The notes: generated from the letters alone by a model not told the origin. 64,000 bases of DNA from Leptospirillum ferrooxidans C2-3 (GCF_000284315.1 NC_017094.1:2015486-2079485); one strand, 5' to 3'. Numbered from the stretch's first letter, positions 22,749 through 27,726 are shown. Translations and numbers: made by a program.

Positions 22749-23732
22749 CTACTTCTTCAGATCCGCCTTTGTCACCGACTTGAAGCCAAAATGCCTGAAC
22801 ACTTTTTGGGCCTCCGGTGATTTGAGGAAGATGAGCCACCGCTTTGCCCATAGCTTGTGACGGGCTCCACGAATGATCGAAGCGGCATAGATCGCCTTGA
22901 CATTCTGGCTGTCAGGGATGGCGACATTTTCAATCGCATGTCCGACCTGCTCCTGGAAGATGGCCTCCGAACGCCAGGTCACACCGGCATCAGCTTTCTT
23001 GGCCATCAGAAACATCGGACTCTGACGATGGTGGATGCGGGTCAATGTTGTTTCTCCATTCTTGACCTTGTCCTCATAGACCGTCTTGGAAAGCTTCTCC
23101 CCTCCAGCCTTTACCAGTGAGCCCTTGATCTGGCGGGAAACACCTTCCCATGCCGGATTGGGCATGACAAGACGGACCCCTGGTTTTCCAAGATCGGAAA
23201 GCCCCTTGATTCCCGCAGGGTTCCCCTTTGGAACCATGATCGTCAGGTCATTTGTCGCATAGGCCACTGGAGGACCAACCAGAAGCTTTTTCGCAATCAG
23301 TTTCCGGACCTGTCCAAGACCCGCCGCATAAAGATCTCCGGGAACCGTCATCGTCGCATTACCGACAGTGAGTCGGCCTTTTTCGGCGATCTGTTTGGCC
23401 AAAAGACCGGGCGGAAGGGTTTCGTAAAAGAGTTTTCCCCGGATTTTTGGATATTTTTTCTCAAAGGCCTCAACGAGTGGAGCCATTGCAAAAAAGTAAT
23501 TTCCACCCACATACATGACCAATTCGGGATGGCTCATGTTTCCGTGGAGATCCGGAAGATTGTCCACATCCGGAACGGTGACATTCACCCCTTTTCCGAC
23601 AGATGGATTGTTATGCCCATGGCTCCATGGCGGATAGGTGGAAGTCTCATCTGCCCAAACCGTTTTTCCGGAAGAAACGCCTCCAAGAAGGAGAGAAACA
23701 GCCAGTATCGTCATCAAAGGTCGTTGATTCAC
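22749..23732 (-). CDS. Periplasmic solute-binding protein (ModA/SBP-like)
   Basis: A 327-residue exported protein with a signal peptide (residues about 1-28, ending VWA-DE). The body has the two-lobe type II binding-protein pattern: YVGGNYFFAMAPLVEAFEKKYP, LLAKQIAEKGRLTVGNATM, LTIMVPKGNPAGIKGLSDLGKPGVRLVMP and a late WRSEAIFQEQVG. This is similar to molybdate and related oxyanion-binding proteins; the ligand is not certain. No ABC permease or ATPase is adjacent. It follows a Tat-exported DsrE-like gene and a tetrahaem gene on the same strand, so it may serve sensing or delivery of a sulfur oxyanion or metal; that is inference. Confidence 0.75.
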   Translation of the reverse strand: MNQRPLMTILAVSLLLGGVSSGKTVWADETSTYPPWSHGHNNPSVGKGVNVTVPDVDNLPDLHGNMSHPELVMYVGGNYFFAMAPLVEAFEKKYPKIRGKLFYETLPPGLLAKQIAEKGRLTVGNATMTVPGDLYAAGLGQVRKLIAKKLLVGPPVAYATNDLTIMVPKGNPAGIKGLSDLGKPGVRLVMPNPAWEGVSRQIKGSLVKAGGEKLSKTVYEDKVKNGETTLTRIHHRQSPMFLMAKKADAGVTWRSEAIFQEQVGHAIENVAIPDSQNVKAIYAASIIRGARHKLWAKRWLIFLKSPEAQKVFRHFGFKSVTKADLKK

Positions 23733-23765
23733 AATGCCTCCCTTTCTGAAAGGTGAATGGTTGGG

Positions 23766-24569
23766 CTAGGATCGGGCGTAGTGGAAACCCGCTTCGCTCA
23801 AAAGGGGAATGGTTCCCACAATTCCCGGTGTCAGGACAACTCCCGGAATCAGGTGGTTTGTCAACTCCGCAGCAATCTCTCCGTGGGTCTTGTGATCTGG
23901 GTTCACCCCGCCTTTTTTTAACGCTCCGGAAAGCTCCCAAATCATATTGTGGCAACCCAGAAAAACAACCCCTCTTGCCTGCAGGACCGGAATATTGTTG
24001 TCTTCCGGTGATAAAACTCCATGAGGATTGTTCAGATCGGAAAGAGGCTTTTCCGAAGCAGGGGATCGCTTCAAAAGCGGATTTTGAGCTGATTTCATTC
24101 CGGCTTTTTCATGAAGTTTATACTTTTCCCACATATGATCGTCAAAAAGAGCCAGATGAGCCGTTCCATGGGTTGCGGACAACACCAGAGCATCTTTTTT
24201 TCCAAAGCTGTAGACCTGGGCGTTCAGGGAATTTCTCATGAGGTTCAGCCAGGGAGATCCGATCACCGTGTTATCCCATACCTGTTTGGGCTTTGCCCGG
24301 TAATGGAACAGAAGTGAAAGGGCTTCATGATCCCATTCATCCTTGTGGAGACTGATCATGGTCACCGACTTATAGTCCCGACGCCCTTTTGCCCTTTCGA
24401 GTGCTCGCAAAAGTGCCTTCAGGTGATGATCGCCTTTGGGCTCAAGGTCCAGTTTTTCAGATGCCGCCGCTTCAGGAAGCTTCCCGACACCCAGGCCAAG
24501 GGCCGCACCTGCTGCCCCGATTGTCGCCACCATTCCCAACATTTCCCGACGAGAGACAGATTCACTCAT
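23766..24569 (-). CDS. Tat-exported DsrE-like protein
   Basis: A 267-residue protein with a twin-arginine signal (SRREMLG then a Gly/Ala-rich core, residues 7-35). The later part has the DsrE/F-like pattern: RGVVFLGCHNMIWEL (Cys about residue 196), then LIPGVVLTPGIVGTIPLLSEAGFHYA at the C-terminus, which resembles the end of sulfur-relay DsrE-fold proteins. A role in periplasmic sulfur or redox chemistry is possible. GGAGG upstream of 24569 sets the start; an upstream ATG at 24632 would bury the Tat signal. It stands between the tetrahaem gene and the binding-protein gene, so a shared transcript is plausible. Confidence 0.7.
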   Translation of the reverse strand: MSESVSRREMLGMVATIGAAGAALGLGVGKLPEAAASEKLDLEPKGDHHLKALLRALERAKGRRDYKSVTMISLHKDEWDHEALSLLFHYRAKPKQVWDNTVIGSPWLNLMRNSLNAQVYSFGKKDALVLSATHGTAHLALFDDHMWEKYKLHEKAGMKSAQNPLLKRSPASEKPLSDLNNPHGVLSPEDNNIPVLQARGVVFLGCHNMIWELSGALKKGGVNPDHKTHGEIAAELTNHLIPGVVLTPGIVGTIPLLSEAGFHYARS

Positions 24570-24708
24570 ACGTTTTCCTCCTTCGTTGATTCGGATTGAT
24601 ATTGATAAAAAGAGCCTGCATCGGCTCCGCAACAGGAATCTCCGGTGAACCTATCTGGCAATAGCCCCCCAGGAGATTCCCCTGAAAAATGATGACCGTC
24701 ATCAGAAA

Positions 24709-26172
24709 TCAATGGCCCTGAACAACGCTTTTTCTCGGATCAAGGGGATGTGGTCGGCTTTCAATATAGCGGGCCACATCCCATGCCTCCTGAACGGATA
24801 GTATTCCGGAATTTCCAAGAGGCATATTGTGCTGGATAAAAGATGCTGCCTTCGCGACAAGGTGGAGCCCTGCACCACAGTTGAAGGAATGGGCACCCCA
24901 TAGGGGAGGGAAAATAAGGCGGCCACCCTGCTCCAGCCCCTGTCCATTCGCACCGTGGCAAAGAGCGCAACTATGCTGGTACACCGCCCGTCCGTTTTCG
25001 AGGCTGACGGGACGGGGCGGTGGGGATAATGCACGGAATCCCCGGCCCGAAAGACTCGCACCGACCGGTGCTCCTTCCGCCATCCATTTGCTGTATGCCT
25101 CGAGGGAAACAATCTCCTTGCTTGATAGGGCCGGAGTCTTCCCGTTCAGGGAAAATCGGAAACAATCCTGAAGCCTTTCAACATAGGTGACAACCTTATG
25201 ATTCTTTTCCCTGTAAACAGGGTACGATACAAATGCTGCCCATAAAGGGGCAGCATTTGCAATCGTCCCCGCACCCAGATGGCAAGCTGAACAGTTCAGG
25301 CCATTTTTGTCAAACTGGGGAGCAAGCTTTCGTGTGTGAAGAAAGAGCTCCCGTCCGTACCGGATGGCATCCCCGTTCGGACCCGGAGGACCACCATCCC
25401 AATCGGGAGGATGAAACGTTCCGGCAATATAAATTCCATGGTGATTCAAGGAAACAGGAGGGTGGTCATTGCCTCCGGACAGCCATTGTGCCAACGCACT
25501 GATCTCTTCGGGAGAAAGCTTCCGGGAAACACTCGACATCAGATTGCCGGGATCTCCGGATCTGTATCCCCCTTTAAATAAAGACAGCTGGGTTGAGAGA
25601 TATCCGGGGGAGAGGCCAATAATGGGAGGGAAAGCATGGGCTACCCCTTTCCCTACTGGGCCGTGGCAGGTAAAGCAGGAGGGGATACCGGCAGAAAGAC
25701 GACCTTCCCGAGCCAGTCTTTCACCGATGCCCCATGAAGACGCATGATGAAACACCGGAGTCTTTCTGATCGACTTCAGCTTTGAAAAATACTGTGCCAC
25801 CTGTTTGCGTTCTTCGGCAGAAAGGTCCTCTGCGACAATTTGCATGACCCCAGGTCGTTTTTTTTTCGCAAAAAGATCCAGCTCGTGTTGAACATAAAGA
25901 TCGTCGAGACCGGCAATTTCAGGAGTCGCCCTTCCCGCAAGTCCCTCCCCCTTCGGTCCATGGCAGGACACACAACTCTGACCAAGATGGGGGAGCGGTC
26001 TGAAAGCCAGGATTTTACCGGTCAGATTGGCAGCCCGGGATATCATCGGATAAAAAAACGCAAGCATCAGAAAAACAATGGTAAAGACAGGAAAAAGTCG
26101 ATTTTTGGGAACGATTTTTATCACCATTGGACTCAGTATCAAAAACACACTCCCCAACAAAACATGGCTCAT
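24709..26172 (-). CDS. Tetrahaem cytochrome c with C-terminal TsdA-like thiosulfate dehydrogenase domain
   Basis: A 487-residue exported protein with four haem sites: CVSCH 67-71, CFTCH 166-170, CSACH 294-298 and CALCH 402-406. The N-terminal half holds two cytochrome c553-like domains. From about residue 268 the protein follows TsdA: NGLNCSACHLGAG, NAAPLWAAF, then YVERLQDCFRFSLNGK with Cys337 in the position of the TsdA haem-1 axial cysteine, and HNMPLG with Met450 for haem 2. TsdA oxidises thiosulfate to tetrathionate, or the reverse. The fused N-terminal haems could pass electrons on. The signal peptide ends near ISRA; ATGs at 26172 and 26127 both lack a clear ribosome site, so the start is open. 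Confidence 0.85.
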   Translation of the reverse strand: MSHVLLGSVFLILSPMVIKIVPKNRLFPVFTIVFLMLAFFYPMISRAANLTGKILAFRPLPHLGQSCVSCHGPKGEGLAGRATPEIAGLDDLYVQHELDLFAKKKRPGVMQIVAEDLSAEERKQVAQYFSKLKSIRKTPVFHHASSWGIGERLAREGRLSAGIPSCFTCHGPVGKGVAHAFPPIIGLSPGYLSTQLSLFKGGYRSGDPGNLMSSVSRKLSPEEISALAQWLSGGNDHPPVSLNHHGIYIAGTFHPPDWDGGPPGPNGDAIRYGRELFLHTRKLAPQFDKNGLNCSACHLGAGTIANAAPLWAAFVSYPVYREKNHKVVTYVERLQDCFRFSLNGKTPALSSKEIVSLEAYSKWMAEGAPVGASLSGRGFRALSPPPRPVSLENGRAVYQHSCALCHGANGQGLEQGGRLIFPPLWGAHSFNCGAGLHLVAKAASFIQHNMPLGNSGILSVQEAWDVARYIESRPHPLDPRKSVVQGH

Positions 26173-27228: not shown

Positions 27229-27726
27229 TCAATGGAACAAGGCAGCTCCATGGCTTGATGCACCCATGAAAAAAAGCATAGGGATTGAAAGCATTGTGTT
27301 GACCCTTGATGCCAGAAAAGCCTTTCTTGCCGCTTTGGCCTTCTCTTCCGGCTGGGCTGGAACGAGACCGATGACTCTCTTCTGATTGGGCCAGATAATG
27401 CCCCATACGTTCAACATCATGATGATGCCAAGCCAGGCACCCATGCCAATAACAGCCGCGCCCTTGTGGAGCATGAATGCATCAGCAAGCATTCCTCTTT
27501 GGCCAAGAATAGAAAGCCCAAAAAGAACGGTCAGAACGGATGCCCATCGGAAGAAAAACAGCGCCCGGGGAACCAGATGCTTGAAAGCCTCGGCCTTGGC
27601 CTCGGGAGAGATCGCCTTCAGAAATGGGACCTGAACGAAGTTGAAGTAATACAAAAGACCGATCCACATGATCCCTGCGAGGAAATGTCCCCATCGCATG
27701 ATCAGTTCCGTTGCCACATGATCCAT
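27229..27726 (-). CDS. PuuD-like four-helix membrane protein (urate hydroxylase N-terminal family)
   Basis: A 165-residue membrane protein with about four helices. The opening MRWGHFLAGIMWIGLLYYFNFVQ matches the membrane domain found in urate hydroxylase PuuD. Here the domain stands alone, without the C-terminal cytochrome c part. His residues near the starts of helices could bind haem. The product name 'urate hydroxylase' would be a transfer from the family; in an iron oxidiser a respiratory role is as likely. It is followed by a terminator and preceded by a tiny membrane-protein gene on the same strand. Confidence 0.75.
   Translation of the reverse strand: MDHVATELIMRWGHFLAGIMWIGLLYYFNFVQVPFLKAISPEAKAEAFKHLVPRALFFFRWASVLTVLFGLSILGQRGMLADAFMLHKGAAVIGMGAWLGIIMMLNVWGIIWPNQKRVIGLVPAQPEEKAKAARKAFLASRVNTMLSIPMLFFMGASSHGAALFH

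Follow-up and report, generated by a model that had tools for sequence, protein, structure and literature searches.

A fused TsdBA cytochrome beside a Tat-exported thiosulfate dehydrogenase-family protein and an orphan binding protein in Leptospirillum ferrooxidans C2-3

The tsdBA-tsd-sbp locus and its tetrahaem protein

Iron-oxidising acidophiles of the Leptospirillum type are usually viewed as living on iron alone. We analyzed a 64,000-nucleotide stretch of the Leptospirillum ferrooxidans C2-3 genome (GCF_000284315.1, NC_017094.1:2015486-2079485; hereafter, the window), in which three minus-strand genes encode a 487-aa tetrahaem protein (tsdBA), a 267-aa twin-arginine (Tat) protein (tsd), and a 327-aa solute-binding protein (SBP; gene sbp). 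The locus pairs two unrelated thiosulfate dehydrogenase families with an orphan binding protein, and these gene identities are well supported. A preliminary description of this DNA had placed the trio on one strand; its open reading frames (ORFs), coordinates, and strand were retained, and the order was corrected, so that the haem fusion lies upstream, followed after 139 nt by tsd and after a further 33 nt by sbp. The start codon of sbp is GTG, and a longer alternative TTG ORF for tsd begins at 24632. Genes for a GGDEF/EAL protein and a phosphoglycerate mutase-like protein flank the trio on the opposite strand.

Next, the tetrahaem protein was compared with known structures by phmmer. The best match in the PDB was TsdBA of Marichromatium purpuratum (5lo9), which is not a chance match, as its E was 2.6e-82. 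The strongest 5lo9 alignment spanned the whole TsdA half, and the two upstream cytochrome domains of 5lo9 also matched the second cytochrome domain of the query. Furthermore, the AvTsdA structures 4wqc and 4v2k matched residues 262-478 (E about 1e-52; 1.1e-52 for 4wqc), cytochrome c4 structures matched residues 59-233, and Pfam SoxA-TsdA_cyt-c exceeded its cut-off. A TsdB profile built in this analysis gave 288 bits, although the profile itself contains this sequence. The domain limits were set at about residues 50-235 for TsdB, a dihaem electron acceptor, and about 252-482 for the dihaem TsdA.

The predicted axial ligand of haem 1 in the TsdA half, Cys337, fell on the Cys in AvTsdA (GDCFERS) and in M. 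purpuratum TsdBA (QGCFRYS). This column held Cys in 73 of the 74 aligned TsdA domains, the remaining row being a fragment gapped there, and the haem 2 Met was similarly near-universal. The identity of the C-terminal half as TsdA, as proposed earlier, was supported by its PDB matches, both haem sites, and the axial Cys, and its position among TsdAs in a tree without outgroup agreed with this. The claim of two cytochrome domains fused upstream also held, with two haem sites, a TsdB-type dihaem electron acceptor, and the cytochrome c4-like match. In contrast, the fused electron-transfer module, which had been called the least ordinary part, was rejected as a novelty: because the M. purpuratum fusion is known, having been solved (5lo9) and treated in PMC5146829, the TsdBA architecture is not new. 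Both proteins share the TsdB-TsdA order, four haems, the haem 1 axial Cys, and a haem 2 Met preceded by Asn; the window protein differs in its divergent TsdA half (top identity to any tree row, 54%) and in that its gene lies beside tsd-sbp.

The residue before the haem 2 Met, Asn449, occupies the place of the switching Lys208 of AvTsdA, where 4wqc has Asn and 4v2k has Lys. Campylobacter TsdA, with Asn at the same place, acts as a tetrathionate reductase (PMC5146829). Asn was found there in 71 of the 74 TsdA domains, including that of the window. Because it is near-universal in the aligned set, the direction of the reaction cannot be read from this residue, which was discarded as not diagnostic.

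Table 1. Features of the tsdBA-tsd-sbp locus (window coordinates)
Feature	Position	Strand	Basis
tsdBA (fused TsdB and TsdA)	24709..26172	-	phmmer against PDB; Pfam SoxA-TsdA_cyt-c above cut-off
CVSCH, residues 67-71, TsdB haem 1	25960..25974	-	CXXCH motif
CFTCH, residues 166-170, TsdB haem 2	25663..25677	-	CXXCH motif; cytochrome c4-like match
CSACH, residues 294-298, TsdA haem 1, predicted active site	25279..25293	-	CXXCH motif; PDB alignment
Cys337, predicted axial ligand of TsdA haem 1	25162..25164	-	aligned with Cys of AvTsdA and M. purpuratum TsdBA
CALCH, residues 402-406, TsdA haem 2	24955..24969	-	CXXCH motif
Met450 (in NMPLG), predicted axial ligand of TsdA haem 2	24823..24825	-	alignment
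tsdBA-tsd gap (139 nt) with stable hairpin	24570..24708	-	fold z-score -1.97
Terminator-like stem and T run in the gap	24628-24611	-	terminator scan
tsd (Tat-exported, DsrE-like, NF052225 family)	23766..24569	-	NCBIfam score; fold search
Cys206 of Tsd, sole cysteine, predicted active-site residue	23952..23954	-	conservation; DsrE alignment
sbp (orphan periplasmic oxyanion-type binding protein, SBP_bac_11)	22749..23732	-	Pfam; PDB relatives

Tsd and the binding protein

The window Tsd scored 371 bits against NCBIfam NF052225 'thiosulfate dehydrogenase' (cut-off, 300), and orthologues from Acidithiobacillus, Gluconobacter, Bradyrhizobium, and others scored 366-421. From these sequence scores, its membership in the family of the tetrathionate-forming thiosulfate dehydrogenase of A. 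ferrooxidans (AFE_0042) is well supported, and the corresponding activity is predicted. AFE_0042, the founding member, forms tetrathionate with a pH optimum of 2.5; it does not reduce ubiquinone or horse cytochrome c (PMC6335251). The electron acceptor of Tsd was drawn as '?' in a 2024 review (PMC10859504).

No Pfam family was found for the window Tsd at E 0.1, and nothing meaningful was found for five relatives. A sequence-only search of the PDB with Tsd similarly gave no relatives, and fold prediction was therefore used. With the AlphaFold model (predicted local distance difference test score, pLDDT, 79), the six best Foldseek hits included five DsrE-type entries (2pd2, 1l1s, 3pnx, 3mc3, and 2qs7; E 1.5e-3 to 0.23), the other being a designed cage. 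Alignment of the Tsd profile with a DsrE-family protein by hhalign (E 8e-5, probability 61%) placed Cys206 on the conserved Cys of that protein, and Cys206 was invariant in 59 of 59 Tsd relatives. Taken together, the model and alignment point with moderate strength to a DsrE-like fold in a protein that is not a Pfam DsrE member. The label 'DsrE-like' in the preliminary description is hence kept as to the fold; membership in the NF052225 family had been missed. Tsd shares the DsrE-type fold with DsrE3A of Metallosphaera cuprina, whose cysteine carries thiosulfate. However, DsrE3A has two cysteines and works with TusA beside Hdr-like genes, whereas the window Tsd is a larger, Tat-exported protein with a single Cys. 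In Burkholderiaceae, a separate small DsrE protein was observed upstream of tsd (L060:3753-4253 and L057:4415-4903), together with Dsb/TlpA-type thiol proteins at L060; in Bradyrhizobium and Bosea, tsd likewise occurs in the company of Dsb proteins.

The sbp product matched Pfam SBP_bac_11 (E=2.7e-49), and its PDB relatives were sulfate/molybdate/PEB3-type binding proteins. Beside sbp, no ATP-binding cassette (ABC) permease or ATPase gene was identified. In six loci of Planctomycetota metagenome-assembled genomes (MAGs), SBP and TsdA were joined in one ORF of about 590-630 aa directly after tsd, and SBP_bac_11, SoxA-TsdA, and cytochrome c domains were detected in both of the fusions examined. 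The missing ABC partners, together with these fusions, suggest from sequence that SBP may serve delivery rather than uptake.

Because of the terminator-like hairpin and T run in the gap between tsdBA and tsd, a single tsdBA-tsd-sbp transcript is not assured. The number of terminator-like sites around the gap barely exceeded that in shuffled sequence, and a search of Rfam gave no match.

Conservation of the tsd-sbp pair and diversity of TsdA

The genome scan recovered 269 Tsd relatives, and the neighborhood counts below use the best 80, among which 54 loci were well covered (4.5 kb or more on either side). Of 66 loci, 65 had a longest-ORF gap below 60 nt between tsd and sbp, and the median gap was 8 nt. 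SBP was present in 43 of the 54 well-covered loci, and these had TsdA (30), DoxD (12), or neither (1) as a partner; TsdA or DoxDA thus stood beside 42 of 43 tsd-sbp pairs, and the two were never found together. Among the 11 well-covered loci lacking SBP, TsdA was found in 3. When the SBP loci were clustered at 80% identity, 10 had TsdA and 6 had DoxD, with none having both or neither. The DoxD proteins examined contained DoxD and DoxA domains. Similarly, 13 plasmid records, several of which are near-copies, gave 9 with TsdA, 3 with DoxD, 1 with neither, and 0 with both. For a 2.56 Mb genome holding three TsdA loci, we estimated the chance of a TsdA gene lying within 5 kb of a random gene at near 1%. 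At least 8 swaps between TsdA and DoxD as partner were counted on the Tsd tree. The tsd-sbp pair and its TsdA or DoxDA partner form a conserved module extending far beyond the genus of the window, which the preliminary description had overlooked. No prior description of the tsd-sbp-TsdA module was found in the open-access literature, where absence is no proof.

The nearest named tsd loci in this sample came from acid-mine MAGs labeled 'Nitrospirae bacterium'. The nearest Tsd outside the genus label of the window (91% identity) belongs to the same family and has DoxDA upstream. The related genome G051 has the order tsdB-tsdA-tsd-sbp followed by a five-haem TsdA gene, and other genomes of the family have tsd-sbp followed by that gene. 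In A. ferrooxidans, the tsd-sbp-doxDA cluster (AFE_0042 to AFE_0044) of another iron-oxidising acidophile likewise has tsd followed by sbp, with an NF052225 member and a homologous SBP; it differs in that the electron exit is DoxDA (quinone) instead of TsdBA (cytochrome), and in the window tsdBA lies upstream. Acidithiobacillus ferruginosus similarly has a binding protein gene after tsd, as in the window, where the gap is 33 nt. A fused four-haem TsdBA, tsd, and sbp, in matching strand and order, were also found on a conjugative plasmid of Bosea sp. AS-1 (NZ_CP022371, L146:4125-7612). However, the Bosea fusion arose separately, as its TsdA shares 75% identity with a split TsdA of Afipia, and Dsb and YeeE genes flank that locus. 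At five other loci, tsd occurred with no SBP, TsdA, or DoxD nearby, mostly after XdhC-like and MobA-like genes, and this branch may have another role.

A tree of 73 TsdA domains, constructed with no SoxA outgroup, placed the window TsdA on its own long branch among TsdA rows that include M. purpuratum TsdBA and split TsdAs. A group of 31 TsdAs of the same family, with full support, did not include the window TsdA, whose forced union with the TsdA rows of that family was not rejected (approximately unbiased test, p-AU 0.41). We also considered whether the window TsdBA derives from the split tsdB-tsdA next to tsd in G051; the tree did not support this, although the union above was not rejected. 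Haem-protein matches occurred in 19 of 21 genomes of the family; among those searched, the fused TsdBA was confined to the genome of the window and one other of the same genus, and in most others the matches were either a five-haem TsdA or tsdB and tsdA as two genes. The window's genome carries two further TsdA loci: a tsdB-tsdA-tsdA row adjoining a clpB-like gene (L007:3048-5622), whose two TsdAs lie on different branches of the TsdA tree, and a 695-aa five-haem protein in which a TsdA domain is fused behind a three-haem N-terminal part (L006:5047-7134; G000:C1 about 2375046-2377133). The five-haem TsdA gene directly follows tsd-sbp in related genomes and lies elsewhere in this one, in which no SoxB was found. 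Proteins resembling it also occur in Gallionella-type MAGs.

A candidate three-part thiosulfate-oxidising unit

We propose, with confidence slightly above even, that the three proteins form a periplasmic thiosulfate-oxidising unit in which SBP captures, Tsd carries, and TsdBA finishes. SBP would capture thiosulfate, and Cys206 of Tsd would take the sulfur anion, either as a Cys-S-thiosulfonate or in a bound reactive form. The His/Cys haem of TsdBA would then complete tetrathionate formation, and the two electrons would reach a c-type chain by way of TsdA haem 2 and the haems of the fused TsdB; in related clusters, DoxDA would perform the final step and deliver the electrons to quinone. Coupling among TsdBA, Tsd, and SBP is likely, and we infer that they act together, that the reaction runs in this direction, and that Tsd hands over sulfur or electrons to TsdBA or DoxDA. 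DsrE3A carries a Cys-S-thiosulfonate (PMC4175335), and TsdA acts through one on its axial Cys (PMC5146829). Because both use this chemistry, a transfer from Cys206 to Cys337 is chemically plausible by analogy.

Furthermore, TsdA and DoxDA share the conversion of thiosulfate to tetrathionate and differ in their electron carrier, so that the simplest reading would have Tsd and SBP as a common front end. The broader view, in which this front end belongs to a modular thiosulfate oxidase with an exchangeable redox exit, either TsdA (split, TsdB-fused, SBP-fused, or five-haem) or DoxDA, appears to us evenly balanced. If it is true, the 'thiosulfate dehydrogenase' and DoxDA of A. ferrooxidans become partners in one system, and gene neighborhoods offer a testable answer to the question mark at the Tsd acceptor, namely TsdBA in some bacteria and DoxDA in others. 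With the TsdBA fusion already known, the surrounding tsd-sbp module, in which only the presumed electron exit is swapped, is the more interesting part. The three-part unit also suggests that some Leptospirillum-type acidophiles may use the electrons of thiosulfate freed as pyrite dissolves, a point of relevance to bioleaching and acid mine drainage.

Several points weigh against the proposed three-part unit. The locus sample is the best 80 of 269, and in 8 of the 54 well-covered loci tsd has no SBP, TsdA, or DoxD nearby, with SBP alone at one further locus. Furthermore, Tsd of A. ferrooxidans was reported active when purified alone (PMC6335251), and the terminator-like hairpin sits between tsdBA and tsd. 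Two self-sufficient, redundant thiosulfate dehydrogenases that are only co-regulated, with TsdBA passing electrons to cytochromes, Tsd to another acceptor, and SBP being an unrelated scavenger, would fit the same hairpin, the solitary tsd genes, and the members of either family reported active alone (PMC6335251, PMC5146829). We consider such redundancy rather unlikely, because SBP is fused to TsdA elsewhere, TsdA and DoxD alternate beside tsd-sbp, and the tsd-sbp spacing is tight and nearly constant.

The haem 2 residues are silent on the direction of the proposed oxidation, and DsrE3A reacts with tetrathionate, not thiosulfate (PMC4175335). The DsrE3A reaction would fit a unit that handles tetrathionate, whose thiosulfonate group would be taken by Tsd, as by DsrE3A, while SBP binds tetrathionate, the product being removed or trafficked, or TsdBA acting as a tetrathionate reductase. 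The Asn that replaces the haem 2 Lys, as in the reductive Campylobacter enzyme (PMC5146829), would agree with it but for the presence of Asn in nearly all aligned domains. This alternative seems quite improbable, as AFE_0042 was identified as tetrathionate-forming (PMC6335251) and the alternative partner DoxDA is a thiosulfate oxidase. Similarly, the thiosulfate annotation may be over-extended, with the cluster acting on another sulfur anion or thiol (e.g., sulfite, polythionates, or organic thiosulfates), since the name of the Tsd family is apparently based on one characterized member and relatives of SBP bind many oxyanions. However, TsdA and DoxDA are both thiosulfate enzymes, and we regard a different substrate as very improbable.

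Elsewhere in the window, positions 27229-27726 on the minus strand encode a 165-aa membrane protein with a Urate_ox_N match, apparently unrelated to the tsdBA-tsd-sbp cluster.

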